In this document: one piece after another, positions 299-63,133 of the stretch
Layout: each line of letters starts with the position of its first letter
How positions within the stretch are numbered: position 1 is the stretch's first letter
NCBI GenBank assembly: GCA_963965975.1
Contig: OZ014412.1
Location: 2,172,501 to 2,236,500, forward strand
DNA length: 64,000 nucleotides
Reading direction: 5' to 3'
DNA from: Xestospongia bergquistia
Taxonomy: Eukaryota > Porifera > Demospongiae > Haplosclerida > Petrosiidae
Notes under the pieces: generated by a model
Told to the model about the DNA's origin: nothing
Databases searched by the model: none
The model's input: only the letters and a program-made list of their open reading frames with translations
Program-made: the position numbers and the translations under genes

Positions 299-2536
299 TC
301 ATTGTGATGCTATTACATTTTCATAGTCATCAGTACATGTCCTACTAGGCTGCACTGTTATATATGATGGATTACTCTCTAATTCCACTCTTCTACTTCT
401 CATTTCAAGTATATGTACTATATGTATATATAATAGTAATAATGATGAAGTTAAACAATATAGTTTACCTTCCTCATATGCAGGATTGTTAATAATATCT
501 TGCTGATTAACTGTATAGAATTATTATGAATATATTACTTTGTAACTACTCCACTTTTTACCTCCAACTTCATGTTGCTGTCTCTTCTTCATCCTCCAGT
601 ATACAGTAATACTAGTAACTAACACTATTATAGCAATAACAATTATTACTACAATACTGACTGTACTACTAGTAATAGTAATGAGGATGAACACAGAAGC
701 TATACTTAACACAGATCTGATAAAATATTTTTTATTAAGGATATATTTACTTGAAAAAGTAGTAGGTTCTGAGTGTACTGATGTCATCGTTAAAGTTATT
801 CCAGCTGTACTAGTGACATCACTGATCAACACAGAGACTGTGGTCTCATCATTTAATAATATACCTAGTAGTATATATTATATAGAACAATACACAATAG
901 TCAGCATATACTATTTACTGGTAGGAACTATAGTCTTAGTAGGAGATGGTAGTGGTATGATATACTCCAGTACTTGAGGATACGCAACAGATGGGTTAGT
1001 TATAATAGTACCATCATCTATATCATGAGCTGTCACAGTATAGTTACCACTATCTTGTAAAGTTATATACTGGGATACTATACTCTCCTCTATACTGGAT
1101 TTACTAATATTAATAGACTTCACAGTTCCTTTATGAGAAGACTCTTTAAATATCACATGACATCCATCAGCAGTAGATCTCTCAGCAAATCTACACTCTA
1201 TAACTACTGATCCATTATTAGAGTAGTACTGTAGAGTGAGTCCTTGAACATGATAGGTTGCTATGAGAAATTTTGTATAACAATTTTAAATTTTTAACTC
1301 ACTAAAAATAATATGATCTTGGTCTTTGGTGTTGTTAAAAGAGTCTGTGATATATACAGTAAAAGTGTAGCTATTAAATGGATCCAGACCAGTAATATTA
1401 TAACAGATAATGACATCATCATTATTAGTAGTGTTTCCAATATGTTGAAGATGATAAGTTGTCACAATATTGTTATATTCAGTTGTACCAAATAACAAAC
1501 TATTACAAAGTCTAGGTGTACCATTGACCTTGAAGTAATAAAACTTTTTAATCTAAATTTGCTATTAATAAGATATTGTACCTTTAACTTGAATTGTATA
1601 GTGATGTTGGTGTTAGTATCAGTAAGTATTACAATATAATTTTGTATTTCAACTGTATAATCTGTAATAGAGTACAATCACTATATTTGGTAATATGTTA
1701 TGTCAACTTACTTCCTGAGTACTCTCTTGTTGAACTAACATCAATTGATATGTATTGTTCAGTAAAAGCTGTTACAATAACAGTATAAATATCACAGATT
1801 GTGAAGTTATTAGAAAACCCATTATTATAAAATGTATCAGTTGTATTAATATTCACTATTACAAAACCATCTTTGTTCTTAACAATAACATGATATGTTG
1901 CAACAATTCCTTGTGGAATATCAATAGAGTAAAATGATGGAGGAGACCAGGTTACTGAAAGATTATCATCTGACATTAAAATTGTTAAGTTTCCAACTGA
2001 TGATATACCTAATAAAATATGTGCAGTTATTATTAGCCTATGTTAGTGTCATATACCTTTAACAGTCAAAGTAACACCTTTTTGTTGAAGATTTAATGGA
2101 TTAAAACTTATCACACTACATTGAACAGCTATCCCATCATTAATAGGTAGTGCTTTTATAGTTAGTACTGATGACCACACATCAACTGATATATTGTTAG
2201 TAGTTACTGATATCTCTCTGTCTTGATTACTGGGATCAGTGAGTAAATTACCTCCTACAGTCCATGATAGTATATCTCCTATACCCTCACAGGTAAAGTT
2301 AGCCAGTGTGTAAAGTGAAGCAGACACTGATGAGGGAGCTATTGTGATATCTATAATATGCACATAATAATAATTATTATTATTATAAGTACATTACAGA
2401 CTTTATCTTTAACAAACCATGGCTCTACAAAGCAACAAATCATTCAAATATATTATCATTTTAACTTACTAGCTCCATTTACTGACCAAATTATCAAGAG
2501 TAAGATAAGACTGGGCTTCAAGACTACCTCATCCAT
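299..2536 (-). CDS. Ig/FN3 single-pass receptor, class A tail (copy 1)
   Basis: Ten exons splice in frame to a 572-aa protein: 2470-2536, 2057-2350, 1712-2008, 1582-1661, 1303-1528, 919-1260, 751-864, 562-699, 469-510, 299-417. All introns are GT-AG. Order: signal peptide (1-22), Ig-like domain (23-120, with B-strand FTC, a core Trp and a D-x-G/Cys F-strand), FN3 (121-219), second FN3-like unit (220-321), Cys-containing membrane-proximal domain (322-435), Ser/Thr stalk, TM (about 480-508), and a basic KKRQQ stop-transfer followed by a 50-residue tail. The tail carries NPAYEEV, NPSY and DYENV, which are NPxY and YxxV/YxN motifs of the kind read by PTB and SH2 domains. It lies head to head with the gene at 3578. 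Exon 8 uses an acceptor inside the usual position, so TM entry differs slightly from its paralogues. Family identity is seen directly; a signalling or recognition role is inferred. Confidence 0.85.
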
Positions 2537-3577: not shown

Positions 3578-5556
3578 ATGAGTAACCAAATAAAAATCAT
3601 ATTGGTTTGTTTGGGAAGTCTTCTACTCACTTTTAGAAAGGTTGATACAGGTGGTAAATCAATTAAAATTTGTATATATATTACACATGAATTCCTCCTT
3701 TTATCACAGATATCACACAGTTCCTCTTCTGTTACCACTTCACTCTATACACTGGTCAACTTTACCTGTAAGGGCACAGGAGATATACTGAATTGGCAAG
3801 TAGGGGGTAATTCACCCAATGATCCCAGTAATAAAGATAGAGAGATATCAGTAACCACTACTAACAATATATCAGTTGATGTGTGGTCATCAGTACTAAC
3901 TATAAGAGCACTACCTATTAATGATGGGATAACTGTTCAATGTACAGTGATCAGTCAAAATCCCTTTGATTTTAAAACAAAGGGAAGTATCTTAACAATT
4001 ACAGGTCAATATTATGTATTATATTATAAAACTTCATTCAACAACATACAGGTATCACATCAGTGGAAAACTTTACTTTTAGTCTCAACACTTCTTCAGC
4101 CTGGTTAACCTGGTCTTGTCCATCATTTTACTCTCGTGATATTCCACAAGGGAGTTTTACAACATATCATGTCTATGTTAAGAGTAAAAATGGTTCTATA
4201 ATAGTAGATGATAATACAACTAATACATTCTATCAGTTACCTAGGAACTTCACTGTCTGTGATATTTATAATATTGATGCTAGTGTCACTGCTTTTATTG
4301 AACAATACAGTTCACTAGTTAAAAATGCTACTAAAGAAAATACTGGAAGTAAGATAATTTTAATTTTCTCTTTAATAAATTACTACAGTATCAAATAATA
4401 CTATTGACATACTTAACTATGATGTGAAGTTTAGTAACTCTATAATACAAGTACAATTTCTTATCAATGTAAGGACTAATTATATAAATATATGTTGATA
4501 AAGTTATATATTCTAGATCAATGGTTTCCCTCACCTATGTAATGATATTATATATGGTATAACAAAGGATAATGTGAATGAGACAACTAAGTCTTATGAT
4601 CCTGCTTACATAATTGCCACGAAAATTAATGCAACAACAATACCTTATAATATAACTGGACTACATCCTTTTCTTAATTTTACATTTACTGCATACATTA
4701 TGGATATATATAACAACACAAAGAATAAAGATAGTATTATATTTTGTAAGTTAATTGTTATGCACAATGAATCATTATCACTGTAATATATATATATATA
4801 GCAACCTATCATGTTCAAGGACTCACTCTACAGTACTACTCTGATAATGGATCAGTTTTTGTAGAGTGTAGGTTTGCTGAGAGATCTACTGCTGATGGAT
4901 GTCATGTGATATTTAGAGAGTTGTCTAAAGGAACTGTGAAGTCTATTAATATGAGTAAATCCAGTATAGAGGAAAATACAGTATACCAGTATATAACTCT
5001 ACCAGTTAGTGGTAACTATACTGTGACAGCTCATGATTTAATAGATGATACTATTATAACTAACCCATCTGTTGTGTACCCTCAAATACTGGAGTATATC
5101 TTACTATTACCATCTCCTACTGAGACTGTTGTTCCTAGCAGTAAGCAGCATATTGTGCTGTTATATAATATAGTATATCATTATAGGCACAACATCAAAT
5201 GATATGGTAGCTATGGTAATTTCTGGAACTACTGATATTACTACCACTGGTATAACATCTAGTGTAGAACCCACTAGTGAAATATCTGATTGTAAGTTTA
5301 ATATAATTTATATATCATATTGAGTGTCTGTACTATAGCTTTTTGGAATCTCTACTATTTTATTCTTACTGGTATACTAGCTGGTGTAGCTGTTGAGAAT
5401 TTATTAATAATAACAGGAATCATGATTTGTGTTTGTTATTGTTGGAGAAGAAGGATGAAATCTATAAAACTCAATAAAGATGTAGAGCAATCACCTCAAA
5501 ATACATATCCAACTTCTTTAACTAGTGGAAACACACATCTTGACAATAATAGATAG
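3578..5556 (+). CDS. Ig/FN3 receptor, class D short tail, altered splicing (copy 2)
   Basis: Exons by homology: 3578-3653, 3710-4004, 4052-4348, 4389-4468, 4517-4745, 4802-5140, 5187-5291, 5339-5556. The domain plan is as in the family: signal peptide, Ig, FN3, FN3-like, membrane-proximal domain, stalk, TM (VAVENLLIITGIMICVCYC region), short tail. Two oddities stand out. The Ig exon has lost 2 nt near 3716, breaking the normal exon 1/2 phase, but intron 1 (3654-3709) has no stop and is the right length, so an unspliced 3578-4004 exon restores one 564-aa frame. The usual exon 4 acceptor is AA instead of AG, and an AG at 4387-4388 restores the frame. The stop TAG at 5554 replaces a CAG that is read through in the paralogue at 24882, shortening the tail. 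It could be functional with rewired splicing or an early pseudogene. Confidence 0.6.
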
Positions 5557-6756: not shown

Positions 6757-6783
6757 ACTGGCGAAAGAGGCTGGGATACTAAG

Positions 6784-7608: not shown

Positions 7609-7616
7609 GTCACTGA

Positions 7617-8102: not shown

Positions 8103-8108
8103 TTACAT

Positions 8109-10846: not shown

Positions 10847-10945
10847 AGTTATCAGTACATGTCCTACTAGGTTGTACTGTTATATATGATGGATTACTCT
10901 CTAACTCCACCCTTCTACTTCTCATTTCAACTACATGGACTATGT
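10847..10945 (-). pseudogene. Orphan class A tail exon
   Basis: The reverse strand matches exon 10 of the class A receptors: EMRSRRVELESNPSY, then QPSRTCTD. A stop follows directly after TD-N, where the intact copies read DYENV. No other exon of this gene is found before the hAT fragment and foldback to its right, so the remainder has been deleted or displaced. Confidence 0.75.
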
Positions 10946-14483: not shown

Positions 14484-17400
14484 ATGTTACAACATGAGAT
14501 CATCTTAAGAAACTTTTTTATCACCGTCTTTATTATATGGTCTGTAAAAGGAGCTAGTGAGTTTAAATAATTGAGTATTCATATTTAATATTATGTTAAT
14601 ACAGATATCACAATACCTCCTTCATCAGTATCTACTTCACTTTATACACTGGCTAACTTTACCTGTGTGGGTATAGGAAATACACTATCATGGACAGTAG
14701 GGGGTAAATTACTCACAGATCCATTTAATCAAGACATGGAGATATCAGTAACTACTAATAATATGTCAATTGATGTGTGGTCATCAGTACTAACTATAAG
14801 AGCAATACCTGTTAATAATGGGATGAATATTCAATGTGTTATAATAAGTTCTAATCCATATCGTTTTATTCAGAAAGGAGCTACTTTAAAAATCAAAGGT
14901 ATTTAACTGCTTTGATTACCTTGACCTCATGTTTAACAGGTGTTTCATCTGTTCAAAAATTAGCATTCTTTTTACTTGGATCCTTTTTTTCTTTGATCTG
15001 GTCTCCTCCATCATTTTACTCCAATGATATTCCCCAAGGAAGTATTACATCATATCATGTTCGTGTTATGAGTAAAAATAACTTTGTAATAGTAGATGAT
15101 AATACAACAGGCACATTCTATCAGTTACCTAGTAACCTCACAGTCTGTGATATTTATACTGCTAGTGTCAAAGCTTTCATTGAACAATACCGTTCACTTG
15201 TTACAACTATTACTAAACAATATACTGGAAGTAAGATTCAATTAATTACTATTTTAATGTATTGTTAAGCATGGTAGTGCCTGCTATGTAGAGATGACCT
15301 CTCCCCATTTAAGTTAATTTTGTTGTTATTTAAGCACCTACCTGCCATTATCAAGTCTTCATAGATAATAAGACTTGACATTATTAACTAAAAAACCTCT
15401 TGCAAAAGTGGAGAACTAGAAATTAACTAATTTTAGACCCCTCTTCCGTTTCTATCTCACTATATAGCACAATATTACATGAAGTTTTTGTAATAATGTT
15501 ATGATAACAAAAACCTTTTTAAAAGTGATTGAGAATAGGCTACACAGTGTTTCCTTAACTCAAAATTGTTCATGGATTACGTGCAATAATTTCTTGTAAT
15601 CTAGGTATCAATAATTAACAGCTATATTTCTAAATTATAACTAAACATGATACTACCATGTTGTGAATATTATTAGATGTGTAAATGCTGTTTAGTTGCT
15701 TGTAGTTAATTTGTAGTGCAGAAACCCTATGTTTCCATAAATTATACTTATTATAATTAAGCAAGATCATAATTACAAAAGTCATTCTAAAATTATTTTG
15801 TATGTGCTATAGTTGCATCAGTCATGTCTAATTTAAAGTGCTTTCATTGGTTGCAATGATGCAATGGCAGTTATTTTGTGTGAGTTTGTCAGTTTCAAAA
15901 GTTATATACAGCAATATGTAAATGGAGGGAGTAAACATGTATGAAAATATATATAAATGTATACTGTATGGGCCAAAACAACCATCAAACTAAAAGTTTA
16001 ACATAGATTATTTTTCTTTTTCACAATCTAATATTTCTTGCTCATTTTACTACCAATATAAACAATATCCACAATAACCAAAATATCACGTTTCAAGAAT
16101 TCAGCCATTATAATTACACACTTACTCCACACTAAAATATTCAAAACATATCTTGTAATATACATTGATAAAAAATATTTTTATATACTACACAATCATA
16201 TACTTATAAACAACATTTCATGAATCTTAATATTATTCTCATCATCAAATTTTAATAAACAAATATTGTCAATAAATGGCAAACAAGTAATAAAAAAATA
16301 GATAATGAAAGTGAATGAGGGATAGTCATCCTAAAAAGTAATGAAATAACTTTTAAGGTAAGAATAACATTATACAAATTCACACTAGTAGCTTTGTAAC
16401 TATGTGGATAAGAAGAAATACAATAAGCTACTTACATAGAGTTATATATGAATTTGTGTGTACAATGCATTGTGGATACCTTGTTTCAATGCTCTTGTAT
16501 TGTCACTCCAACATCTACTTTCATTTCTAAATGTTTTTTATTACTTCTTATTTTTATATATCAGATTATTCTACTGATATACTTAATCATACTGTAAAAT
16601 TTAAAAACTCTGGAAACAATTCTATAATACAAGTACAATTTACTATCAATGTAAGGACTATAATTATTATATAAATAATTAACAATAATTTCAATTGATA
16701 TATATTTTCTAGATCAAAGGTTTCCCTCACCTATGTAATAGTACCATATATGGTATAACAAAGGATAATGTTAACAATGAGACAACAACCTATCATCATG
16801 TTTATATTAAGAATGTTACTGATGTTAATGAAACAACAATATATTATAATATAACTGGACTACATCCTTCTCTCAATTATACATTTACTACATATATTAT
16901 GGATTTATTTAACAACATAAAGAATGAATATCATATGACATTTTGTGAGTTATTAAAATTTATATATCTTCCATATTTGTCCTATCACTATAGCAACCTA
17001 TCATGTTCAAGGACTCACTCTACATTACTACTATGATAATGGATCAGTTCTTGTAGAGTGTAGGTTTGCTGAGAGATCTACTGCTGATGGATGTCATGTG
17101 ATATTTAGAGAGTCTTCCAAAGGAGCTGTGAAGTCTATTAATATGAGTAAATCCAGTATAGAGGAGAATACAGTATACCAGTATATAACTCTACCAGTTA
17201 GTGGTAACTATACTGTAACTGCTCATGATATAGTAGATGGTACTATTATAACTAACCCATCTGTTGTGTATCCTCAAGTACTGGAATATATCTTACTACT
17301 ACTATCTCCTACTAAGACTGCTATTGTTACCAGTAAATATTGCACATCACTGCTTTGTGATTATTTCTTGCTAGGTACTGAATTGAGTGATAAAATTACT

Positions 17401-18343
17401 ATTTTATTTTTCTCTATTGAGACATCTTCTCTGACAAGTGATATTACTAGTATTACTGGTATAGTGACATCAGTAGTACCTACAAGTGGTACATCAAGTA
17501 AATATATTGTTAACAAATATATTAATTAATTTGTCAATTAGCTACCAAACAGCCTGTGCTCATTATTACTACTTGTAGTGTAGTAATAATAATTGTTATT
17601 GCTATAATAGTGATAGTCACTGTTTATTTGAAGAAGAGATGTAAGGTTAAAGGTTAGAACAAAAACATTTCGGACTTCATTATATCTTATATATACATGT
17701 GTTCTGTTGATAATAAACAAGATAATGAGAAAGGTACTGCTAACTTTTATGCATTGATTTTAATATATACAGGTCTACCTGCATTAACTAACATCATTCC
17801 AATATCAAATGACATTGAAGAGAGTAGACCATCTATTGACACTTTAGCAGGTATATTTGTTTATATTCTGATCTTGTCATAGTATGAATAATTAAACTCA
17901 CAGAAAGAGATGATCTTATTTCCATACCAGAGCAAAAACAAACATCTTTTATGACCACAAAGTCTCGTGATAAGTCCTTTATGACCACTTCCAATATCTT
18001 TCTGGAATCCCAGTATGATGTCAAGAGACAGAAACATTTGATTAGAAAAGTCTTTAATAAATATAAAATTCATGGACAAATACATGACTCACGTCTATGG
18101 CAACTAGCTGAAGAGATGGCCAAATCTGATCTTGTTCCTCCGGAACTTGCATTCAAGTCACCTTCATTTGAAGATATCTGTGATAACTTTATAGAGAAAA
18201 TGGAATCATGTTCTGATGTAGAATATCATTGCAGGATGTTCCTAAAAATATGTTCTGAATTTAGTGGCAGTCGTATTGCATTTGTTGGTAGAGATATTCA
18301 ACGTGATTTGAGGAGTGAGGGTGTGATCATAAACATAAACTAG
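14484..18343 (+). CDS. Ig/FN3 receptor with class B C-terminal domain (copy 3)
   Basis: Exons 14484-14556, 14605-14898, 14940-15230, 16565-16650, 16713-16944, 16994-17332, 17375-17497, 17542-17652, 17773-17850 and 17904-18343 join in frame to 688 aa. Start ATG at 14484 gives MLQHEIILRNFFITVFIIW, a signal peptide. Ig 25-122, FN3 123-219, FN3-like 220-325, membrane-proximal domain 326-438, stalk to 479, TM within 480-516 (TCSVVIIIVIAIIVIVTVYL-like), cytoplasmic linker, then a domain of about 108 residues (581-688) shared with the copies at 54557 and 60318. Intron 3 is unusually long (1.3 kb). A 24-nt micro-exon present in the other two class B copies has lost its acceptor here (TTG instead of TAG near 17711). 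Skipping it keeps the frame. The donor of exon 8 is GTTAG, weaker than its paralogues. Confidence 0.85.
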
Positions 18344-19184: not shown

Positions 19185-22100
19185 CTATAGTTGAGGTGTA
19201 GAGTTATCTTCCTCAGGTGTACTAATATTGTCTGGCACATCTTGAATGTATGTGATATGAGAAAGATAAGGATCAGATGAAATAATTTCTGATAGGCTAT
19301 AAGAATTATGTTGAGGGTTCACTGGTTCTTGATATGAAGTGCTATTACTTGTTTGATGACTTTGATCATTCTCTTTTCTAGTAGCTGCTATGTTCGTCAA
19401 GTTTTTGTTGTTAGCTAAAATAATAATAATAAGCTATATAATAAATTACAAACTTTACCAAAACAAGGAGTTTCATTATTGTCATTGAGATGATATTTAG
19501 TTTCAACTGTAATTAATGAGAAAGTGATTTCTATAAATGTCATTGCTATGACAAATTCAGTATTTACCAATAGTTTTATTAACATGGTCTAGTCTTTGAT
19601 GCCTTTGTGGATTAACATTCATCATAACACAAAATCTACTTTCACTATCTTGTACTGCATTAGTTTCTGAAACTGTATGTCTACTGTTATCAAAGGCACC
19701 CAATTTTTCATATGTTCCTAAACTATAACAATTATTATTTGTCAAATAAACAATGTACCTTTATGTTCTTGTTCTTCTCTTGAAACATCTGGTACTTTAG
19801 TACTCTCTTCAATTGTCTGTGATAATATCAAAAATGAAGGATGTCTTAGGATAAGGCACTTCTAGGAATAAAGATAGCTAAGGTTGTATATAAACTTGTG
19901 AATTCAGTAACTAGTATTTAAAAAAACATGAGTCATTTTTCAGTATGTTTAGTTTAAGATGAAAGCTCCATTGCATATAAATATATTAGGAGACAAAAGT
20001 ATATATTGTTACAAACACTTGTAAATATGTTATGTGATAGCTATGTCCATACAACTACCTTTGGAGCCCGAGGCTATAATAATTCAAAAACAACATTGTA
20101 CTTCTGTGTGAGGTAATGTATGATAATACGTACTTCTAATTAAGTATATTACCATTATGTTAAGGTGACCATCAATAACACTATACTGCACTGGAGCACC
20201 ACTAGTGGGTGGAACTATGGGACGAGGTGAAGGAAATCCCACTTCAGCATAATGATTTGTACTTGTTTCTCCCTCTGAAGTATTATTCATTACTAGATCA
20301 TTACGCTCTGAGATAACTGATGTTGTACTCTCCTCTGACGAATTATTACAACTTGGGGTTGTAGGATCACTTGATATGGCATTGCCATTATCTTTAGGTA
20401 TCATTGGCTCTTTCAAAGATTTTGCATCAGTTATGTCATTAGTGGATTGGTTATTGTAGGATTGGATATTATCATATAATGGATTATCTCTAGGTCTGTC
20501 CTATAGTAATAGATAAAGTGATCATGATTGTGATACACACTCAGACTCCAATAAGAGCAATAGTAAATATTATTATCTTCAATTTACATTCAATGTAGTT
20601 TTACAAAGACAAAACAATATGAATATACCAATCAAAATATAGACAATGTTTGCGAGATATTTATATTTTTGATGTAATTTATACCATAGTTACAGTTCCC
20701 TTGACAATAACAACACCATACATAATGTGACATATAGTGATACCATTTATGATGATATAAATAACTCAGCTGTCTATGTCTGACTATCTACATTATTGTA
20801 TAATACTAAGAAATTGGCAACTTGCTACAATTACAGCAAAAAAATTGATAGTAGTACTAATAATTATATAATTAATATAATATAATTAATATAATTTCTA
20901 TAGTAATAATTATATATTAAACATAAATCACAATGATCACTTACATTATTTAGTAGTGTTGATTTCATCATTAACTCTTCAAACTTAGTATCACAAGGAG
21001 TACTAAGATATGTATTGTTTAGTAATAGCAGATCATGTTCACTAAAGCCAGTCATAGTGATGGTATGAGAAGACTCTGATAAGGTGGGTGGAGGTTGATA
21101 CAATATAACATCAGGTGATATAGGCTGTGATGGTGAAGATTGTACTTGAGGAAGTATGGTTGTTTGTTGAAGTTCTCTTCTTAAGCCAAGTAACTATACA
21201 AAAATAGTGACATTTTCAATATTTAAAGTTTGTCATTCTTTATTAACACTAGTAGTAACACAAGACAAAACATCTTTCATTGATCATATATAAGGGATAA
21301 TAAACAGACATATATAACTTAAGAGAAAGTGAATACAATGTATTTACTGTTTATAAAATTGGAAACAGTGTGAGGAAATCATCCATAGCACCTACTACAT
21401 AAACTGTACTTTCAGTGTTCAGTGTATGTATTAACTGTACATACCTCATCATGACTAATATGATAAGGGTCAGGTATTACTGTAGTAAGATTGTCAGTTG
21501 TTGTAGTTAACTGAAGCAGTTCTACATAACTGATATTAAGTGTATAAAATAGTACATCAAAATTAATATCTTAAACATACTTGTTGCTATTAGCTTGTTG
21601 ACAACGTACTATTGTTCTCTCTATTAGTAATAAAAAAAGGATAATTAATAATAGTTAGTTGCTCATACCTTGATTTTGAGTCAAAGATTGTTTGTTCCTC
21701 TTTCGAACAATAAGACAAATAATAAGTAATATTATTATAAACATTATTATCAGCACCATTCCCACGCAAGGTAGAATATATAAATTTTTTGGACCTAGTA
21801 CAATTGGAATATCATAAATATAATGTAACCAATACATCAACATACCATTACGTATTTGACTAGTAGGTTCTACAGATGGTGTTATACCAGTAGTACTAGT
21901 TTTGTAACTGAACAAAAGAAGTATCTCATCACTTGATATAACATCTAACAAAAGATCATGAAGCAGTATGCAATAGTCTCTACATCACTAACTAGTAGAA
22001 GCAACAGTCTCAGTAATAGGTGGCCATGGCAGTATAATATATTCCAGTACTTGAGGATACACAACAGATGGGTTAGTTATAATAGTACCATCTACTATAT

Positions 22101-38264: not shown

Positions 38265-38307
<43 letters not shown>

Positions 38308-41830: not shown

Positions 41831-43075
41831 TATTGTTCAAAATAAAATGATATATTTATTAACTCACTAAATATTATATTATCTCGGTCTTTAGTGTTGT
41901 TAAAAGTGTCTGTGATATATACAGTGAAAGTGTAGTTATTAAATGGATCCAGACCAGTAATATTATAACAGATAATGACATCATTATTATTAGTAGTGTT
42001 TCCAATATATTGAAGATGATAAGTTGTTACAATATTGTTATATTCAGTTGTACCAAATAACAGACTATTACACAGTCTAGGTGTACCATTGACCTTGTAT
42101 TAAAAACATTTATATCTAGTTTACTATAAATATAATATTATACCTTTAATTTAAATTGTACAGTGAAATTGTTTTTCAGGTCATCAAAATTTACAGTATA
42201 GTTTTTTATTTCAACTGTATAATCTGTAATAGAATATCAATCATCTTATTTAATAATGCTTTATCAACTTACTTCCAGAGTATTCTCTTGTTGAGCTAAC
42301 ACCAATTGATGTGTATTGTTCAGTAAAAGCTGTTACAATAACAGTATAAATATCACAGATTGTGAAGTTATTAGAAAATCCATTATTATAGAATGTATCA
42401 GTTGTATTAATATTTACTATTACAGAACCATCTTTACTCTTAACAATAACATGATATGTTGTAATACTCCCTTGTGGAATATCATCAGAATAAAATGATG
42501 GAGAAGACCAGGTCACGGAAAGACTATTCGCTATCAAAATTACTAGAGTTTCAACAGATGAAATACCTAAAGAAGTATATATTAAATAATAATAATATAA
42601 ATTTGCTTTTTAATAGTACTAGTGTAATCAAAGAAACAATTAAAATGACAACACTGTTCATACCTTTAATAGTCAATGTAGCTCCTTTTTGCTTTAAACC
42701 ATAGGGATTGAAACTAATCAAATTACACTCAATACTTATCCCATCATTAATAGGTAGTGCTCTTATAGTTAGTACTGATGACCACACATCAACTGATATA
42801 TTGTTAGTAGTTACTGATATCTCTCTGTCTTGATTACTGGGATCAGTGAGTAAATTACTACCTACAGTCCATGAGAATATATCTCCAGTGCCCATACATG
42901 TAAAATTAGCAAGTGTATAAAGTGGAACAGACACTGATGAGGGAGCTACTGTGATATCTATAATAAATAGGTATAAACTCATGAAATTTGGTTATTTATA
43001 CTTACTAGTTCCATTAACAGACAAAATAATTAGAAGGAAGATAAATGAAATTTGCTTAAAGATAACTTCATCCAT
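40856..43075 (-). CDS. Ig/FN3 receptor, class A tail (copy 9)
   Basis: Ten exons, 43006-43075, 42664-42957, 42273-42566, 42144-42223, 41868-42093, 41477-41818, 41327-41431, 41127-41273, 41036-41077, 40856-40980, give 574 aa in one frame. Signal peptide MDEVIFKQISFIFLLIILSV, then the family ectodomain, TM and a tail identical in motif content to copy 8 (NPAYEEV, NPSYTIV, ADYENV, ending ASSSQ). The 3' half is almost the same as copy 8, while exons 1-4 and intron lengths differ more. That suggests duplication followed by exchange, or selection acting on the ectodomain. It stands head to head, 0.49 kb, with the decayed + copy at 43564. Confidence 0.87.
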
Positions 43076-43563: not shown

Positions 43564-43983
43564 ATGGCAACAAATGAAAAGACAATCTTTCTGATTGCTG
43601 TGGGCCTTTTATTAATTTTTAGAGAAACTGATGGTAAATGGTAAATTAATGCTTCTGCATAGGTTTTCTTCTTTCTTTAATACAGCTAGCATCACAATAA
43701 CACCTTTATCAGTCTCTGTTATAATTTACACAGTGACTAACTTTACCTGTAAGGGTGTAGGAGATGTGTTGGAGTGGTCAGTACAGGGTAATTAGTCACT
43801 GATCCCAGTAATCAAGACAGAGAGATATCAGTAATTACTAACAATATATCAGTTGATGTGTTGTCATCAGTACTAACTATAAGAGCACTACCTATTAATG
43901 AAGAGATTTATGTTGGATGTATTGTGATTAGTTTAAATCTATAATATTTCCAGAAGAAAGGTGCTACTTTAACAGTGAAAGGT
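43564..43983 (+). pseudogene. Truncated + receptor: signal and Ig exons only (copy 10)
   Basis: The signal-peptide exon 43564-43636 (MATNEKTIFLIAVGLLLIF) has a good gtaaat donor, and the Ig exon 43686-43981 follows a tacag acceptor. A 1-nt loss in the Ig exon near 43790 creates TAG directly after the core GN, and the conserved VWSS reads VLSS. No FN3 or later exon follows. Instead the minus-strand relic at 44254 begins. Non-functional unless it encodes a secreted stub. Confidence 0.75.
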
Positions 43984-45531: not shown

Positions 45532-47391
45532 GTTGATGATGTACTGACTACATTTTCATAGTCATCAGTACATGTCCTACTAGGTTGTACTGTTATATAT
45601 GATAGATTACTCTCTAACTCCACTCTTCTACTTCTCATCTCAACTACATGTACTATATGTATGTATAATGATGATAATACATAATGAAATTACACAATAT
45701 AGTTTACCTTCCTCATATGCAGGATTATCAGTAATAGCTTTATGATCAACTATATAGAATTACATGAAATATTACTTTATAACAACTCCCCTTCTTACCT
45801 CCAACTTCATATTGCTGTCTCTTCTTCTTCCTCCAATATACAGTAATAGTAGTAGTTATCACTATTATAACAATAACAATTATTATTACAATACTGAATG
45901 TACTACTAGTAATAGTAATTAAGATGAACACAGACTGATTGGTAGCTATACTTAACACAGATCTGATAAAATATTTATTAATGATATATAGGAGGTTTTA
46001 CTGAGTGTACTGATGTCATAATCAAAGTTGTACCAGCTGTACTAGTGACATCACTGATCAACACAGAGACTGTGGGGTCTCATCATTTAATATTGTACCT
46101 AGTAATATATTATATAGAACAATACACAATAGTCAGTATATATTATTTACTGGTAGTAATAACAGTCTCAGTAGGAGATGGTAATAGTAATATATATTCC
46201 AGTACTTGAGGGTACACAACAGATGGGTTAGTTATAATAGAACCATCAATTATATCAAGAGCTGTCACAGTATAGCTACCACTAACTGGTGGAGTTATAT
46301 ACTGGTATACTGTACTCTCATCTATACTGGATTTACTCATATTGATAGACTTTACAATTCCTTTAGAAAACTCTCTAAATTTCACATGACATCCATCAGC
46401 AGTAGATCTCTCAGCAAACCTACACTCTACAACAACTGATCCATTATCAGAGTAATACTGTAGAGTGAGTCCTTGAACATGATAGGTTGCTATAAGAAAT
46501 ATTGTTCATAGTAAAATAATAAATTTGTTAACTTACTAAATATGATATAATCTTGGTCTATTGTGCTATTAAAAGTGTCTGTGATATATATTGTAGAAGA
46601 GTAGTTACTTAGTGAATCCAGACCAGTAATATTATAGCAGATAATGACATCATCATTATTAGTAGTGTTTCCAATATATTGAAGATGATAAGTTGTCACA
46701 ATATTGTTACATTTAGTTGTACCAAATAACAGACTATTACACAGTCTAGGTGTACCATTGACCTTGTAATAATAACAGTTTGTTCCAAATTACTGTATAT
46801 AAGATACTGTACCTTCAACGTTAACTGTGTAGTGACATTGGTGTCAGTGTCAATAAATATTACAGTATAATTTTGTATTTCAACTGTATAATCTTTGATG
46901 GAGCATAATTAGTTTGTTTGATAATATATTATGTCAACTTACTTCCAGAGTATTCTATTGTTGAGCTAACACCAATTGAAGTATATTGCTCAATAAATGC
47001 AGTTACAATAACAGTATAAATATTGCAGACTGTGAAGTTATTGGAATATCCATTATTATAGAATGTATAAGTTGTATTAGTATTTACTAACATGGATCCA
47101 TCTTTATTCTGAACAATAACATGATATGTTGTAATACTCCATTGTGGAATATCATCAGAGTAAAATGATGGAGGAGACCAAGTTATGGAAAGATTACTCA
47201 CTATCAACATACGAGAGCCTCAACAGATGAAATACCTTAAGAAGTGTATATTTAAGAAGTGTATATTTAATACTGCAATATCATAGAAATAAACCCATGG
47301 AAATTAATCATTTAAACTTACTAGTTCCATTTACAGACATAACAAAGAGAAGGAAGATAAGTAAAATTTCCTTTAAGATAACTTCATCCAT
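45532..47391 (-). pseudogene. Class A receptor lacking the Ig exon (copy 12)
   Basis: The tail (SADYENV equivalent DDYENV, ending TSSTSH), TM, stalk, membrane-proximal, FN3-like and FN3 exons and the signal-peptide exon (47322-47391) are present. The Ig exon is absent between 47235 and 47322. Because signal-peptide and FN3 exons are both phase 1, skipping it would preserve the frame. However, a 1-nt loss near 47212 in the FN3 exon makes an early stop, the stalk exon has two extra C (near 46078), and the stalk donor is deleted. The stalk insertion is shared with the copy at 58702. Confidence 0.8.
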
Positions 47392-47877: not shown

Positions 47878-50275
47878 ATGGCAAAAAATAAAAAGACAAT
47901 CTTTCTGATTACTGTGGGACTTTTATTTATTTTAGAGAGACTGAATGTAAATGGTAAATTAATGATTCTGTATTGGTTTCTTATTTCTTTAATACAGCTA
48001 ATATCACTGTACCACCTGTATCAGTATCTGCTATTATTTATACATTGGCTAACTTTACATGTGAGGGTACAGGAGATGTGTTAGAGTGGACAGTAGAGGG
48101 TAATTCACTGACTGATCCCAGTAATCAAGACAGAGAAATGTCAGTAACTACTAACAATATATCAGTTGATGTGTGGTCATCAGTACTAACTATAAGAGCA
48201 CTACCTATTAATGATGGGGTGTATGTTGGATGTACTGTGATTATTATTAATCCACAAGATTTTCTGAAGAAAGGGGCTACTTTAACTGTAAAGGGTTAGT
48301 TTCTTTTCTAAGAATTTCTTATTTTTTATTTATTGACATAAATAACATCATATCAAAATTATATTAACAAATCATAATAATAAAAAATCATCCCAAGATT
48401 GGCATCATTGAAATCATAGATAGAATATAATTTAGTTATATTATTAGTTTCAACTTCAACAGCAATTTTAATCTAAACAATTCATTTTGAATCATTAAAT
48501 GTTGAAATAGTTTATGGGGACCTTTAATCTTGTATAGTCAACAAGATTAAGTTACAAGAAACAAACACAATAGTAATCTAATGAGTTATTTTGAAAGAGA
48601 CTAATATAAACATTGTTCTTTATTCTTTTGATGGAAATAAGGTTTTATTTTATTATATTGGAAATGTTTTGATATTGTGAAGTAAGCTGATAATTACATA
48701 TCAAATTAACTTTATTCTTCAATTTATATTAATGCATACATCTTGTAGGTATTTCGTCTGTCAACAACCTTGATTTGGATTTTACTAACATCCCCTCCTT
48801 AACCTGGTCTCCTCCATCATTTTACTCTGATGATATTACACAAGGAAGTATCACAACATATCATGTTTATATTAAGAGACATGATGGCTTTATAATAGCA
48901 GATACTAATACAACTGATGCATTCTATCAGTTACCTAGTAACCTACCTCACTGTTGACTGCATTTCTTATACTGCCAGTGTCACAGCTTTTATTGAACAA
49001 TACAGTTCACATGATAAAACTATTACTAAAGAAAATACTGGAAGTAAGATTATATTAATTATCTATTCAAGTTATTAATATTTTCATATCAGATTATACT
49101 ATTGATGTACATGAACCTACAATGAAAATCAACAGTTCTATTATACAAATACAATTTCCCATCAAAGTAAGGATTAAGCTGTATAAACTAATTTTGATAA
49201 TTATGAACTTTTCTAGATCAATAGATACCATCATTACCTATGTGATATTATGATATATGGTACAACAAATTATAATAATAAGACAGTATCTTATGATCCT
49301 GTTTATGTTAATGGTACTAAGCAAAGTAAAACAGCTGCAGTACATTATAATATATTTGGTCTACATCCATATCTCAATTATACATTTACTACATATATTA
49401 TGGATTTATTTAATAACACAAAGGATGAAGATCATGTGATATTTTGTGAGTTATTACTTTATATTCTCTAATAATTCTTTCATTATCATCATAGCAACTT
49501 ATCATGTCTAAGGACTCACTTTACAGTACTACTCTGATAATGGATCAGTTTTTGTAGAGTGTAGGTTTGCTGAGAGATCTACTGCTGATGGATATCATGT
49601 GATATTTAGAGAGTCTTCTAAAGGAACTTCAAAGTCTATTAATATATCGAAATCCAGATTAGAGGAGAGTACAGTATACCAGTATATAACTCTACCAGTT
49701 AGTGGTAACTATATTGTGACAGCTTATGATATAGTAGATGGTACTATTATAACTAACCCATCTGTTGTGTATCCTCAAGTACTGGAGTATATCTTACAAC
49801 TACCATCTCCTACTAAGACTGTTATTATTATTAGTAGTAAGTAGTAATGGTACTGTTCTGTATTATAATATATCATTATAGGCACATCAAATGATATGAT
49901 AGTTAGGGTCACTATTGAAACTACTGATATTGCTACTACTGGTATGACATTTCTAGAACCTACTAGTGAAATATCTAATTGTAAGTTTAATATAATTTAT
50001 ATATCATATTGACTGTATGTATTAAGACTATCTCTATTGGATGTTTATTGGTGTATTAACTGTTGAGAATACATTACTGATAACAGTAATAAGTATTTGT
50101 GTTTATTATTGTTGGAGGAGGAGGAACAAATCTATAAATCTCACTAAAGGTATATGATATTATTTATAACAGTAGTACTTTATCTCTCTAATAATCATCT
50201 CAAGATACATATCAAGCTCAGTTGACTGGTGTTACTATACCACTTGACAACATTATACACGATAAGGTGTGTCAC
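47878..50275 (+). pseudogene. Class D receptor pseudogene (copy 13)
   Basis: Signal peptide 47878-47953 and Ig exon 47998-48294 are intact (core Trp, D-x-V-YVGC F-strand). The FN3 exon (from 48749) carries a 4-nt ACCT duplication at 48941-48948. The membrane-proximal exon (from 49497) has an in-frame TAA at 49509-49511. The TM exon has lost its usual acceptor near 50027. The TM and short tail (ENTLLITVISICVYYC, then RRRNKS) are still recognisable. Its tail continuation is cut by two transposons at 50299-53219, after which flank sequence resumes (53220-53300). The first two lesions are shared with the copy at 60318. Confidence 0.8.
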
Positions 50276-53213: not shown

Positions 53214-53441
53214 TTTAAAGTTATGAATATGATTACCTTCTTTTTACTACAGGGTGACTGATCAGGAGCTGACTCTAGAAAAGAGATTATAACACAACAT
53301 TATATAAATAAATGCTATTAATTAGTACATAAAAAACAATATAGTTAAAAAATAGTCAAATTATATTATTTGCTGTTGTGCCTATATATAATGAAATAAT
53401 ATAATTATGATGAATGTAATAGTTACTAATATACTACTTAC

Positions 53442-54121
53442 TGGTAGGAACAATAGTCTCTATAGTAGAAGGTACTAAGATATATTCCAGTACTTGAGGG
53501 TACACAACAGATGGGTTAGTTATAATAGTACAATCTACTATATCATGAGCTGTCACAATATAGTTACCACTAACTGGTAGAGTTACATACTGGTATACTG
53601 TACTCTCCTCTATACTGGATTTAGTCATATTAATAGACTTGACAGTTTCTCTCTAAATATCACATGATATCCATCATCAGTAGATTTCTTAGCAAATTTA
53701 CACTCTACACCAACTGAACCATTATCAGAGTAGTACTGTAGAGTGAGTCCTTGAACATTAATTTAAATTACACTCAATACTTATTTTATTATTAATATTT
53801 AGTGCTCTTATAGTTGGTACTGATGACCACACATCAACTGATATATTGTTAGTAGTTACTGATATCTCTCTGTCTTGATTACTGGGATCAGTGAGTAAAT
53901 TACTACCTACTGTCCATGACAATATATCTCCTGTACCCTCACAGGTAAATTTAGGTAGTGTATAAAGTTAAGCAGACACTGATAAAGGAGCTACTGTGAT
54001 ATCTATAATATAATAAAAATAAACTCATAGAAATTGACCTTTTAAACTTACTAGTTCCATTTACAGAAATGGTAATGAGAAGGAAGATAAATAAAAGTTC
54101 CTTAAAGATAACTTCATCCAT
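53442..54121 (-). pseudogene. Collapsed class A receptor relic
   Basis: A membrane-proximal exon (53442-53757, with a small deletion near 53648) is joined directly to the 5' part of an Ig exon (about 53760-54003). A signal-peptide exon follows (54052-54121). FN3 exons 3-5 are deleted and no tail exons remain, because the transposons lie to the left. It sits divergently 0.43 kb from the intact class B gene at 54557, so it is the dead partner of a pair. Confidence 0.8.
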
Positions 54122-54556: not shown

Positions 54557-57491
54557 ATGGCAACAAATGAAAAGGCAATCTTCCTGACTGTTGTGGGACT
54601 TTTATTTACTCTTGGAGAGACTGATAGTAAATGATAAATTAATACTCCTGTAATATCTTTCTTTAATACAGCTAGCATCACATCACCACCTGCATCAGTG
54701 TCTGCTATAATTTATACATTAGCTAACTTTACATGTGAAGGCACAGGAGATGTGTTGGAGTGGACAGTACAGGGTAATTCACTCACTGATCCCAGTAATC
54801 AAGACAGAGAGATATCAGTAACTACTAACAATATATCAGTTGATGTGTGGTCATCAGTACTAACTATAAGAGCACTACCTATTAATAATGGGATCAATGT
54901 TGGATGTATTGTAATTGGTTTTAATTCACAAGCTTTTCAGAAAAAAGGTGCCACTTTAACAGTGAAAGGTTAGTTTCTACTATAAGACTTTATTACTTTT
55001 TATATTAATTGATTATATATATAATCACACAATAATTAACAAAATTATAATTGTAAATAATCATCCTAAGATTGGCATTATTAAAATCATACACAGAGTA
55101 TAATTTAGTGATATTATTAGCTTCAACTTCAACAGTAATTGAACTCTAAACAAATCTTTTCAAATCATTATATGCTGAAATAGTCTATTCTGTTATGTAT
55201 TCTGCGTCTACCAACTGATAGAGTTATTTGAAAGAAGCTATCTAATGAACATTATTGTTATTTTAATAATTTTGGTAGAAATTAAACTTATTATTTTGTA
55301 GATAATGTTTTGATATAGTGAAGTAAGCTGATAAATTAAATATCAACTCAACATGAACAATTTATACCAATGCATACATTTTGTAGGTATTTCATCTGTT
55401 GAACACCTTGATTTGAATTTTGCTAACATTGCCTTCTTAATCTGGTCTCCTCCGTCATTTTATTCTGATGATATTCCACAAGGAAGTATCACAACATATC
55501 ATGTTTATATTAAGAGTAAAGATGGCTTTATAATAGCAGATACTAATACAACTGATACATTCTATCAGTTACCTAGTAACCTCACAGTTGACTGTAATTC
55601 TTATAATGTCAGTATCAGAGCTTTTATTGAACAATACAGTTCACATGATAAAACTATTATTAAAGAAAATACTGGAAGTAAGACTGTATTAATTATTAAT
55701 ATATTCTATTAAAGTTATTGATATTTTTATATCAGATTATACTATTGATGTACAGGAACCTATAGTGAAAATCAACAGTTCTATTATACAAGTACAATTT
55801 CCCATCAAAGTAAGGACTAAACTGTATAAACTAATGTTGATAATTATGAACTTTTCTAGATCAATAGATACTATCATGACCTATGTGATAGTAAAATATA
55901 TGGTATAACAAATTATAATAATAATACAGTATCTTATGATCCTGTTTATATTAATGGCACTAAAGAAAATGAAACAACTAGTGTATATTATAATATAACT
56001 GGTCTACATCCTTATCTCAACTATACATTTACTGTATATATTATGGATTTATATAACAACACAAAAAATGAAGATAGTTTTATATTTTGTAAGTTATTAG
56101 TTTGTATTTCCCAACAATTCCTTTATTATCACCATAGCAACATATCATGTCCAAGGACTCACTCTACAGTACTACTCTGATAATGGATCGGTTGTTGTAG
56201 AGTGTAGATTTGCTGAGAGATCTACTGCTGATGGATGTCATGTAACATTTAGAGAGTCTTCTAAAGGAACTTCAAAGTCTATTAATATATCTAAATCCAG
56301 TATAGAGGAGAGTACAGTATACCAGTATATAACTCTACCAGTTAGTGGTAACTATATTGTGACAGCTTATGATATAGTAGATGGTACTATTATAACTAAC
56401 CCATCTGTTGTGTACCCTCAAGTACTGGAGTATATCTTACAACTACCATCTCCTACTGAGACTGTTAATACTACCAGTAAATAGTGTATATTACTCTGTT
56501 TTATGATGACTCCTTAATAGGTACTGAATCAAGTGATATGATGACCATCCTATTATTCTCTATTGACACAATCTCTCTGACAAGTGACATTACTAGTACT
56601 GCTGTTATAGTGACTTCAGTAGAACCTACTAGTGGTACATCAAGTAAATCAAATACATTAATTATTTTTGTCAATTAGCGACCAAACAGTCTGTGCTCAT
56701 AATTGCTACTAGTAGTGTAGTTGGTGGTATATTCATAATTATTATTGTTACTATAATAGTGATAGTCATATTATATTTGAAGAAGAGAAGACATGAAGCT
56801 GAAGGTAAGGATAAATTCTGGACTACATTAATATCTTATATATACATGTGTTCTATAGGTAAAGAACAAGATAATAGAAAAGGTAGTCTGTTGTAAGTTA
56901 ACTTTTTTTCATTGATTTTAGTAGATACAGGTTTATATCCATTAACAAATATTGCTCTAAAACCAAAGGACATTGAAAAGAACACAGCCGGTACATATAT
57001 ATTTATTTACATATTTTAATCATTTTATAACACAACCTTTCAAACCTACAGATAGAGATGGTCCTATTTCCAGACCAGAGCAAAACCAAACATCATTTAA
57101 GACCTGCATATGGCCTCGTGTTAAGTCTTTTTTGACCTTTTCCAATGTCTTTTCAGAATCCCAGACTGATGTTAATAGACAGAAACATTTGATTAGTAAA
57201 GTCTTTAATAACTATAAAAGTCATGAACAAGTACATGACTCACGTCTATGGCAACTAGCTGAAGAGATGGCTAAATTTGATCTCATTCCTCCAGAACTTG
57301 CATTCAAATCACCTTCATTTGAAGATATCTGTGATAACTTTATTGAGAAAATGGAATTATCTCCTGATGTAAACTATCAATGCAAGATGTTCCTAAAAAT
57401 ATGTTCTGAATTTAATGGCAGTCATATTGCAATTGCTGGTAGAGATATTAGACGTGATTTAAGGAGTGAAGGTGTGATCATAAATATGTGA
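54557..57491 (+). CDS. Ig/FN3 receptor with class B C-terminal domain (copy 14)
   Basis: Eleven exons, 54557-54626, 54672-54968, 55387-55677, 55736-55809, 55860-56088, 56138-56476, 56521-56643, 56679-56804, 56859-56882, 56931-56990, 57052-57491, splice in frame to 690 aa. Signal peptide MATNEKAIFLTVVGLLFTL, Ig (core Trp LEW, NNGINVGC F-strand), FN3 with SPPSFYSDDIPQGS, FN3-like, membrane-proximal domain, stalk, TM (VVGGIFIIIIVTIIVIVILY), KKRRHE. The cytoplasmic linker includes a 24-nt micro-exon, followed by the class B domain of about 107 residues (encoded at 57168-57488). It is the cleanest class B copy and a good reference for the family. It is divergent from a dead class A relic. Confidence 0.88.
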
Positions 57492-58701: not shown

Positions 58702-59834
58702 TTAATGTGATGTTGATGATGTACTGACTATTACATTTTCATAGTCAGCAGTACATGTCCTACTAGGTTGTACTGTTATATATGATGGATTACTCTCTAA
58801 CTCCACTCTTCTACTTCTCATCTCAAGTATATGTACTATATATGTGTATAACAATGATAATACATGATGAAGTTAAACAATATAGTTTACCTTCATCGTA
58901 TGCAGGATTATGAGTAATAGCTCTCTGATCAACTATATAAAATTATATGAAAATATTAGTTTATAACATTTTTCGTACCTCCAACTTCATATTGCTGTCT
59001 CTTCTTCTTCCTCCAATATACAGTAATACTAGTAGTTATCACTATTATAACAATAACAATTATTATTACAATACTGACTGTACTACTAGTAATAGTAATT
59101 AAGATGAACACAGACTGATTGGTAGCTATATTTAACACAGATCTGATAAAATATTTATTAATGATATATTTACTTAAAAAATAGGAGGTTTTACTGAGTG
59201 TACTGATGTCATCATCAAAGCTGTACTAGTGACATCACTGATCAACACAGAGACTGTGGGGTCTCATCATTTAATATTGTACCTGGTAATATATTATATA
59301 GAACAGTACACAATAGTCAGTATATATTATTTACTTGTAGTAATAACAGTCTCAGTAGGAGATGGTAATAGTAATATATATTCCAGTACTTGAGGGTACA
59401 CAACAGATGGGTTAGTTATAATAGTACCATCAATTATATCAAGAGCTGTCACAGTATATCTACCACTAACTGGTAGAGTTATATACTGGTATACTGTACT
59501 CTCATCTATACTGGATTTACTCATATCGATAGACTTTACAATTCCTTTAGAAAACTCTCTAAATTTCACATGACATCCATCAGCAGTAGATCTCTCAGCA
59601 AACCTACACTCTACAACAACTGATCCATTATCAGAGTAATACTGTAGAGTGAGTCCTTGAACATGATAGGTTGCTATAAGAAATATTGCTCATAATAAGA
59701 TGATAAACTTGCTAACTCACTAAACATAGAAATAAACCCATGGAAATTAATCATTTAAACTTACTAGTTCCATTTACAGACATAACAAAGAGAAGGAAGA
59801 TAAGTAAAATTTCCTTTAAGATAACTTCATCCAT
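58702..59834 (-). pseudogene. Class A receptor with ectodomain deletion (copy 15)
   Basis: Tail exon (ADYENV, end TSSTSH), TM, stalk and membrane-proximal exons are followed directly by the signal-peptide exon (about 59765-59834). Ig, FN3 and FN3-like exons are deleted, with a junction near 59720 inside old intron sequence. Signal peptide to membrane-proximal domain is phase-compatible, but the stalk exon has the same two extra C (near 59260) as copy 12 and goes out of frame. Confidence 0.8.
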
Positions 59835-60317: not shown

Positions 60318-63133
60318 ATGGCAAAAAATAAAAAGACAATCTTTCTGATTACTGTGGGACTTTTATTTATTTTAGAGAGACTGAATGTAAATGGTAAATT
60401 AATGATTCTGTATTGGTTTCTTATTTCTTTAATACAGCTAATATCACTGTACCACCTGTATCAGTATCTGCTATTATTTATACATTGGCTAACTTTACAT
60501 GTGAGGGTACAGGAAATGTGTTAGAGTGGACAGTAGAGGGTAATTCACTGACTGATCCCAGTAATCAAGACAGAGAAATGTCAGTAACTACTAACAATAT
60601 ATCAGTTGATGTGTGGTCATCAGTACTAACTATAAGAGCACTACCTATTAATGATGGGGTGTATGTTGGATGTACTGTGATTATTATTAATCCACAAGAT
60701 TTTCTGAAGAAAGGGGCTACTTTAACTGTAAAGGGTTAGTTTCTTTTCTAAGAATTTCTTATTTTTTATTTATTGACATAAATAACATCATATCAAAATT
60801 ATATTAACAAATCATAATAATAAAAAATCATCCCAAGATTGGCATCATTGAAATCATAGATAGAATATAATTTAGTTATATTATTAGTTTCAACTTCAAC
60901 AGCAATTTTAATCTAAACAATTCATTTTGAATCATTAAATGTTGAAATAGTTTATGGGGACCTTTAATCTTGTATAGTCAACAAGATTAAGTTACAAGAA
61001 ACAAACACAGTAGTAATCTAATGAGTTATTTTGAAAGAGACTAATATAAACATTGTTCTTTATTCTTTTGATGGAAATAAGGTTTTATTTTATTATATTG
61101 GAAATGTTTTGATATTGTGAAGTAAGCTGATAATTACATATCATGTTTATATTAAGAGACATGATGGCTTTATAATAGCAGATACTAATACAACTGATAC
61201 ATTCTATCAGTTACCTAGTAACCTACCTCACTGTTGACTGCATTTCTTATACTGCCAGTGTCACAGCTTTTATTGAACAATACAGTTCACATGATAAAAC
61301 TATTACTAAAGAAAATACTGGAAGTAAGATTATATTAATTATCTATTCAAGTTATTAATATTTTCATATCAGATTATACTATTGATGTACATGAACCTAT
61401 AGTGAAAATCAACAGTTCTATTATACAAGCACAATTTCCCATCAAAGTAAGGACTAAACTGTATAAACTAATGTTGATAATTATGAACTTTTCTAGATCA
61501 ATAGATACCATCATTACCTATGTGATATTATGATATATGGTACAACAAATTATAATAATAAGACAGTATCTTATGATCCTGTTTATGTTAATGGTACTAA
61601 GCAAAGTAAAACAACTGCAGTACATTATAATATATTTGGACTACATCCATATCTCAATTATACATTTACTGTATATATTATGGATTTATATAACAACACA
61701 AAGGATGAAGATCATGTGATATTTTGTGAGTTATTACTTTATATTCTCTAATAATTCTTTCATTATCATCATAGCAACTTATCATGTCTAAGGATTCACT
61801 TTACAGTACTACTCTGATAATGGATCAGTTTTTGTAGAGTGTAGATTTGCTGAGAGATCTACTGCTGATGGATGTCATGTGTATTTACAGAATTTTCTAA
61901 TGGAACTAACAAGACTATTGATATAACTAAATCCAGTATAGAGGAGAGTACAGTATACCAGTATATAACTCTACCAGTTAGTGGTAACTATATTGTGACA
62001 GCTTATGATATAGTAGATGGTAATATTATAACTAACCCATCTATTATGTACTCTTATGTACTGGAATATATCTTGCTATACCTATCTCCTAGTGAGACTA
62101 ATATTACTACCAGTAAGTAGTGTATGTTACTCTGTTTTGTGAATACTACTTAATAGGTACTGAATCAAGTGATATAATGATCATCCCATCATCCTCTACT
62201 GTGACATCCTCTCTGACAAGTGATATTACTAGTACTATTGATATAGTGACATCTGTAGAACCTACTAGTGGTAGATCAAGTAAAATATATTGTTAGCAAG
62301 CATATTAATTAATTTGTCAATTAGCTTCCAAACAGCTTGTACTAACGATTGCTACTAATAGTACTGTTGGTATAGTAATAATAATAATTGTTATTGCTAT
62401 AGTAGTGATAGTCGCTAGTATCAGTGTGTATTTGAAAAAGAGACATGAGGTTGAAGGTAATAATACATAAATTCTGGACTATCTTATATTCATGTGTTCT
62501 GTAGGTAAACCACAAGATATTGAGAAAGGTAACACTAACTTTCATAAATTGATGTCAATATATATACAGGTCTACCTCCATTAACAAACATTATTCCAAT
62601 TGAAGAGAGCAGATCATCCACAGGCATTCTGGCAGGTACATATATATTTGTTTATATATTTTGATCTTGTCATAACATAAATAGTCAAACTCACAGAAAG
62701 AGATGGTCCTATTTCCATACCAGAGCAAAAACAAAAAAAATCTAAAACCATAAAGCCTCATGATAAGTCCTTTGTGTCCACTTCCAATATCTCTTCAGAG
62801 TCCCAGTCTAATGTTAATAGACAAAAACATTTGATTAGAAGAGTCTTTAATAAATATAAATACGGTGGACGAGTACATGACTCGCGTCTATGGCAGCTAG
62901 CTAAAGAGTTGGCCCAATTTGATCTCATTCCTCCAGAACTTGCATTCAAATCACCTTCATCTGAAGATATCTGTGATAACTTTATAGAGAAAATGGAATC
63001 ATGTTCTGATGTAGAATATCATTGCACGATGTTCCTAAAAATATGTTCTGAATTTGGTGGCAGTCGTATTGCAATTGTTGGTAGAGATATTCAACGTGAT
63101 TTAAGGAGTGAGGGTGTGATCATAAATATATAA
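60318..63133 (+). pseudogene. Mosaic receptor: class D front, class B tail (copy 16)
   Basis: Signal (60318-60393) and Ig (60438-60734) exons are almost identical to copy 13. The FN3 exon has lost its acceptor and first half at a deletion junction (61136-61143) and carries the same ACCT duplication (61221-61228). The membrane-proximal exon has the same TAA (61789-61791) plus a 1-nt loss near 61881. From there the gene turns into class B type: stalk 62157-62280, TM 62328-62456, micro-exon 62506-62529, linker 62571-62636, and an intact last exon 62697-63133 with the class B domain (62810-63130). The tail is well preserved although the front is dead. An internal start could still give a TM/tail product, but I have no evidence for one. 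Confidence 0.82.

Follow-up and report, generated by a model that had tools for sequence, protein, structure and literature searches.

An Ig/FN3 receptor array on both strands

The window examined here, a stretch of 64,000 nucleotides from the genome of the sponge Xestospongia bergquistia (C2:2172501-2236500; 146.5 Mb in 21 contigs), is occupied by genes and gene remnants of a single family of single-pass receptors with one immunoglobulin (Ig) domain followed by fibronectin type III (FN3) domains. The stop-to-stop open reading frames (ORFs) of the window contain recurring exons of this family on both strands, and from them module profiles were built and applied to 264 kb, namely the window and 200 kb of flanking DNA. 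We term the modules IG, FNA (FN3-A), FNB (FN3-B), MPD (membrane-proximal domain), stalk, TM (transmembrane segment) and tail; as the seeds are window exons, the E-values of these profiles are not independent of the window. Searches seeded with single window exons recovered 46 IG, 42 FNA, 37 FNB and 55 MPD stretches in the 264 kb (E<=1e-3), and in the profile search the modules cover almost the whole window. Grouping by script, with some merged neighbours then split and all counts made by hand, yields 17 units (Table 1). IG, FNA, FNB and MPD are full length and uninterrupted in eight of these (starting at about 305, 3710, 14607, 20087, 25011, 36530, 40865 and 54557), and the other nine are frameshifted, truncated or relics. 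An earlier note on this DNA had described a bidirectional array of about 16 single-pass Ig/FN3 receptors with variable tails at stages from intact to relic, a description borne out by the units, the module profiles and two spliced genes. Its statement that nearly all coding DNA belongs to one family stands as regards the extent of the modules and goes too far in that a retroelement and a THAP-domain ORF are also present. The module profiles found no TM or tail of a known class in unit 2, and retroelement pieces start 1.3 kb downstream of it. Parts of the array are duplicates of one another: 35.5-38.7 kb matches 39.9-43.0 kb in tandem at 91.4% over 3.16 kb, and 47.28-48.70 kb is 99.2% identical to 59.73-61.14 kb over 1.4 kb, with neighbouring stretches at 93%. 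Both duplications are recent.

Table 1. Receptor units, selected exons and other features, in window coordinates
Feature	Position	Strand	Description
Unit 1	305..2348	-	IG-FNA-FNB-MPD-TM-tyrosine tail; modules full length
Unit 2	3710..5287	+	IG-FNA-FNB-MPD-stalk, full length
Retroelement pieces	6619-9826	+	gag, RNase H and integrase domains
Unit 3	10848..10922	-	Relic of a tyrosine-tail exon
Unit 4	14607..18337	+	IG-FNA-FNB-MPD-stalk-TM-tail A (six-helix domain)
Unit 5	20087..23484	-	IG-FNA-FNB-MPD-stalk-TM-long tail of the Y2 class: NPLYDNI, HYAEV, ITIM-like VQYSVI
Unit 6	25011..26906	+	IG-FNA-FNB-MPD full length; TM and tail of another type
Unit 7	32205..34066	-	Frameshifted copy with tyrosine tail
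Unit 8	34611..35755	+	Relic: MPD, stalk, weak IG pieces
Unit 9	36530..38850	-	Complete gene: 10 exons, 575 aa, tyrosine tail
Unit 10	40865..42955	-	Modules full length; part of a tandem duplication (3.16 kb, 91%) of the unit 9 region
Unit 11	43564..43938	+	Relic: signal-peptide and IG exons
Orphan long-tail exon	44260-44553		Listed with unit 12
Unit 12	45540..47210	-	FNA (clipped)-FNB-MPD-TM-tyrosine tail; IG missing
Unit 13	48003..49835	+	IG-FNA-FNB-MPD; frame break in FNA, MPD clipped
THAP-domain ORF	52553-53005	-	Pfam 1.2e-14; inside the array
Unit 14	53440..53967	-	Relic: IG and MPD
Unit 15	54557..57491	+	Complete gene: 11 exons, 690 aa, tail A
Unit 15, exons 1-6	54557-54626, 54672-54968, 55387-55677, 55736-55809, 55860-56088, 56138-56476	+	
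Unit 15, exons 7-11	56521-56643, 56679-56804, 56859-56882, 56931-56990, 57052-57491	+	
Unit 15, MPD exon	56138..56476	+	Predicted FN3-like fold; apparently homogenised across the family
Unit 15, tail A exon	57052..57491	+	Low-confidence linker and modelled six-helix, death-fold-like domain
Unit 16	58720..59671	-	MPD-TM-tyrosine tail only; 93.6% duplicate of the 3' part of unit 12
Unit 17	60443..63130	+	Tail A copy; reading frame broken in both FNA and MPD; duplicate of the unit 13 region

Units 15 and 9 were spliced by hand, with GT-AG sites throughout and no stop. Both proteins consist of a signal peptide, an Ig domain, an FN3 domain, a split FN3, a third FN3, a stalk, a TM and a tail, and in both genes all introns are in phase 1 except that inside the second FN3, which is in phase 0. 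Profile comparison identifies FN3 domains and, weakly, an Ig domain: the IG profile of 16 members has 1308 matches to PDB sequences at E<=10 (best 7e-4), the 60 listed being antibody chains or constructs that align weakly and mostly over the first 30 positions, and Pfam Ig_3 matches one of the 16 members at a weak E of 0.06. The MPD is, in its structural model, a third FN3-like fold, nearest to the FN3s of fibronectin and integrin beta4. Receptor tyrosine kinases were considered and rejected, both spliced genes ending without a kinase domain; none of the Pkinase matches listed (127 of 1263 candidates scored) lies at C2 0.5-2.5 Mb.

Several kinds of tail occur on this one ectodomain plan, and they are swapped between receptors of the family. 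The common tyrosine tail has the form N(P/L)xY...YENI, with YxN kept in 22 of 23 such tails; a strict immunoreceptor tyrosine-based inhibitory motif (ITIM) is found in 8 of the 23 (0.16 in shuffles) and, as VQYSVI, in the ITIM-like long tail, Y2. Besides the window copy of Y2, the genome contains a second copy in the 264 kb and five further matches. Tail A is carried by four family copies only, all within the 264 kb. Compared by VIA-align, its modelled six-helix domain resembles the death fold; a Pfam scan of 16 members (E<=1; 7 families listed) gave no Death, CARD, DED or PYRIN match.

Apparent homogenisation of exons, selection and genomic extent

The exons of the ectodomain differ sharply in how far they have diverged. 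Median synonymous divergence (dS, Nei-Gojobori) is 0.31 for IG (36 copies), 0.44 for FNA (27), 0.76 for FNB (29), 0.126 for MPD (26), 0.17 for TM (22) and 0.105 for the tyrosine tail (22), so that the two middle FN3s are the most diverged part of the ectodomain. Of 27 genes with near-full MPD, 23 allowed every upstream module to be paired. In these, FNA and FNB distances are in close agreement (Mantel r 0.88); MPD distances are uncorrelated with either (r -0.12 each) or with physical distance (-0.08), and for MPD the values are r 0.07 (p 0.027) with strand and r 0.16 (p 0.15) with IG. When two FNB lineages of 11 and 12 genes are compared, identity between them is 0.68 for FNB (shuffled 0.64, within lineages 0.87), 0.76 for FNA (0.64, 0.82), 0.82 for IG (0.63, 0.84) and 0.91 for MPD (0.64, 0.91), and for two introns it is 0.76 (0.77, 0.78) and 0.73 (0.66, 0.79). 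By these identities the two lineages have MPD, and less markedly IG, in common, but not FNB. The earlier note had spoken of a conserved membrane-proximal domain; the common exon is indeed present, as a third FN3 that appears homogenised between genes rather than simply conserved, because its dS is low too and its distances are independent of FNA and FNB lineage. On these two observations, constraint alone was rejected as the cause of its uniformity.

A divergent Ig/FN3-like receptor at C2:793301-797800 on the minus strand (L042), with the same TM and tyrosine tail as the family, was also compared. At the nucleotide level nothing in the 264 kb matches its ectodomain, and at the protein level the matches are weak (IG 6e-6, with 23% identity; FNA 1.5e-5). 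Its TM-tail stretch aligns with the family at 70-77%, and its last tail exon is identical at 101 of 102 positions to a copy near the window, the ungapped 40-base flanks of that exon matching at 12/40 and 11/40. Together these observations point to homogenisation of the MPD and tail exons, exon by exon, between genes. Gene conversion confined to exons is the simplest reading of the mechanism, limited to exons since the introns have diverged too far.

Selection on individual sites was estimated with a self-written, FUBAR-like grid analysis and 12 null simulations per exon. Summed beta/alpha is 0.49 for IG, 0.40 for FNA, 0.36 for FNB and 0.57 for MPD, and pairwise dN/dS ranges from 0.47 to 0.74. 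Sites with P(beta>alpha)>0.9 number 1 in IG, 7 in FNA, 0 in FNB and 3 in MPD, the null simulations giving means of 0.17, 0.25, 0.08 and 0 (maxima 1, 3, 1 and 0), and 23 to 48 sites per ectodomain exon are under purifying selection at P>0.9. This suggests that diversifying selection, possibly inflated by unmodelled conversion, acts mainly on the first FN3 and not on the Ig domain.

Genome-wide, at least 131 rows match the MPD query (150 of 257 candidates scored) and at least 125 the IG query (150 of 193). These are lower bounds for candidates and count rows rather than genes, as a broken copy may appear as two rows and the final ones are distant relatives. About 96 of the MPD rows are, by our own count, near full length; 87 of these lie at C2 0.90-2.43 Mb in two clusters of one chromosome and nine at C2 5.67 and 6.55-6.58 Mb, on C7 and on C4. 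Taking the 87 near-full C2 rows and leaving out the other 44 of the 131, 51 of 53 MPDs at C2 0.90-1.41 Mb are on the minus strand, all 13 at C2 2.24-2.43 Mb are on the plus strand, and around the window both strands are used, minus by 13 and plus by 8. The region of receptor genes reaches beyond the window family, since weak IG matches extend from C2:0.50 to 0.95 Mb. A lone divergent relative on C12 (6504501-6514500) keeps the IG-FNA-FNB-MPD order; because an unspliced ORF 3' of its TM carries NPAYEMT and YEQI, the tyrosine tail would seem to be an old feature. This relative is possibly a founder-type gene. It adjoins a 475-residue ORF that by eye resembles a WD-repeat gene.

The family was also compared with 137 ENA proteins of a second assembly, retrieved by protein searches. 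Twelve match ORFs of the 264 kb exactly except for the first residue (the start codon) and one further protein differs by one residue, so the ENA proteins probably come from the same species. Of the 14 ENA tail A matches three are exact, and the remaining 11, which include three partial or odd ORFs, differ from all four of the genome's copies; two of the non-exact (P0123, P0130) and two of the exact ones each lie on a contig of 540,179 bases. One of three ENA Y2 matches is the window's own copy, and P0136 and P0137 are 77% and 81% identical to it and 54% and 57% to the genome's other Y2 copy within the 264 kb; the remaining five Y2 matches of the window genome reach at most 49% to the window copy. 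These differences, the sole hint of gene-content polymorphism, suggest haplotype-dependent gene content; assembly error or a second species could also account for the extra tail genes. Two qPCR primers of the sponge A. queenslandica, as given in PMC5118744, lack an exact match in the window genome, which SNPs or primers that span exon junctions could explain.

A candidate recognition system and its rivals

Given these features, we propose that the locus is part of a large tandem family of paired-receptor-like, single-pass receptors for immune or allogeneic recognition, a reading to which we assign a probability of roughly 0.58. The heads would bind variable ligands of another cell or of a microbe. 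In most members the phosphorylated N(P/L)xY...YENI tail would recruit SH2 or PTB adaptors, in a few the Y2 tail might be inhibitory, and in a few others tail A could nucleate or join death-fold assemblies, coupling binding to death-domain assembly; one recognition plan would thus feed different outputs, as in paired immune receptors. Weighing against this proposal are the few diversifying sites amid otherwise purifying selection and the apparent partial homogenisation of IG, the outermost domain, which slightly lowers our confidence. The molecular basis of self/non-self recognition in sponges has long been sought. More tentatively, and doubtful as a whole, a hitherto undescribed recognition complex of about a hundred genes and remnants, in an early-branching animal, may combine diverging heads with a shared stem, exon-limited conversion keeping the stem FN3 and tail interchangeable across genes, strands and highly diverged ectodomains, and the swap between phosphotyrosine and death-fold tails setting the output, as a candidate basis of that recognition. 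If this is true, paired-receptor-like arrays arose independently in an early animal, exon-scale conversion is the mechanism by which stem and tail stay common as the remaining exons drift apart, and a defined gene set is at hand for direct tests of sponge allorecognition.

Ig plus FN3 is a usual plan of adhesion receptors, and the family could instead be a lineage-specific adhesion or tissue-organising one (contactin- or Robo-like), expanded in tandem and drifting by birth and death with no role in non-self recognition, in keeping with the fibronectin and integrin beta4 likeness of the MPD model, the mainly purifying selection and the nine broken or relic units of 17. About 96 near-full MPD exons, swapped tails, a death-fold-like tail and tail genes that only one of the two assemblies contains would all be unusual for structural adhesion genes, and we regard this origin as unlikely. 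A mostly decaying array, with few functional receptors among pseudogenes kept alike by non-selective conversion, would account for the broken units and for pairwise dN/dS values that are high for conserved receptors; it appears improbable in the face of eight units in which each of the four ectodomain modules is whole (two of these units have complete ORFs), the near-invariant YxN and the many purifying sites of every ectodomain exon. A family sensing microbial patterns or symbionts, rather than serving allorecognition, is a genuine possibility that we rate below even. It accords with the many NACHT and Death matches of the genome, which amount to a large innate-immune toolkit, and with the change of sponge Ig-domain genes on microbial challenge reported in PMC6208332. 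It differs from the recognition reading proposed above in the ligand only, and microbial and allogeneic ligands cannot be told apart from sequence.

Several known systems offer parallels. The ectodomains of the mammalian leukocyte receptor complex (KIR/LILR) consist of C2-type Ig domains only, with cytoplasmic ITIMs. That complex shares with the sponge family the tandem array, the broken copies and single-pass Ig receptors with one ectodomain plan and different tails; the sponge receptors, in contrast, have one Ig followed by three FN3s, a six-helix tail, and TM and tail exons that also occur behind a highly diverged ectodomain. The likeness proposed is one of plan. Because the ectodomain falls outside the KIR/LILR definition, we claim no membership. 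In Hydractinia, the Alr proteins have a tandem V-set-like pair and extreme allelic polymorphism that determines fusion; they too are encoded by a gene cluster of an animal that branched early, and are Ig-fold transmembrane proteins whose tails bear tyrosines, whereas the sponge family lacks the V-set-like pair. Tail A receptors, with their death-fold-like C-terminal domain, resemble UNC5 and TNFR/Fas in layout (ectodomain, TM, C-terminal domain), but without a Pfam death-superfamily match and on four family copies only. Sponge Ig-TIR receptors, of which PMC6208332 describes one and two genes in two species, likewise join an Ig ectodomain to an intracellular immune signalling domain, but this is TIR rather than tail A or a tyrosine tail, and there are one or two genes as against about a hundred copies. 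No description of the present family was found among titles and beginnings of abstracts, a search largely outside subscription papers, and the accessible portions of PMC8662651, PMC2828406 and PMC3447736 contain nothing on it.

Tail A-like domains and other elements

At least 150 tail A-like domains occur genome-wide, together with many Death matches and 97 NACHT matches, and they look like a large death-fold-like family that has no Pfam model. A Death match lies within 2.5 kb downstream of 16 of the 150. A partnership with NOD-like receptors was rejected, none of the 150 lying within 4 kb and on the same strand of the 87 of 97 NACHT matches used. ZU5 matches lie within 2.5 kb of three of the 150 (1.1 expected) and, in both directions, within 4 kb of eight (mean 1.9, maximum 6), an association that is suggestive at best. 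One exon (locus L036) was considered as ZU5-like, which neither Pfam nor PDB sequences support; ZU5 matches are present 2.4 kb upstream of two sister copies. Adjoining the right end of the receptor cluster, L043 (C2:2476001-2478300) and its neighbours at C2:2.466-2.499 Mb form a row of ORFs, roughly 200 to 600 residues long, that carry a tail A-like domain.

Within the window, a direct repeat of 100 bases, with copies at 6657 and 9981 (97%), accompanies the retroelement. A near-palindrome of 1.25 kb at 11986-13237, a 93% inverted repeat, is perhaps a foldback element.

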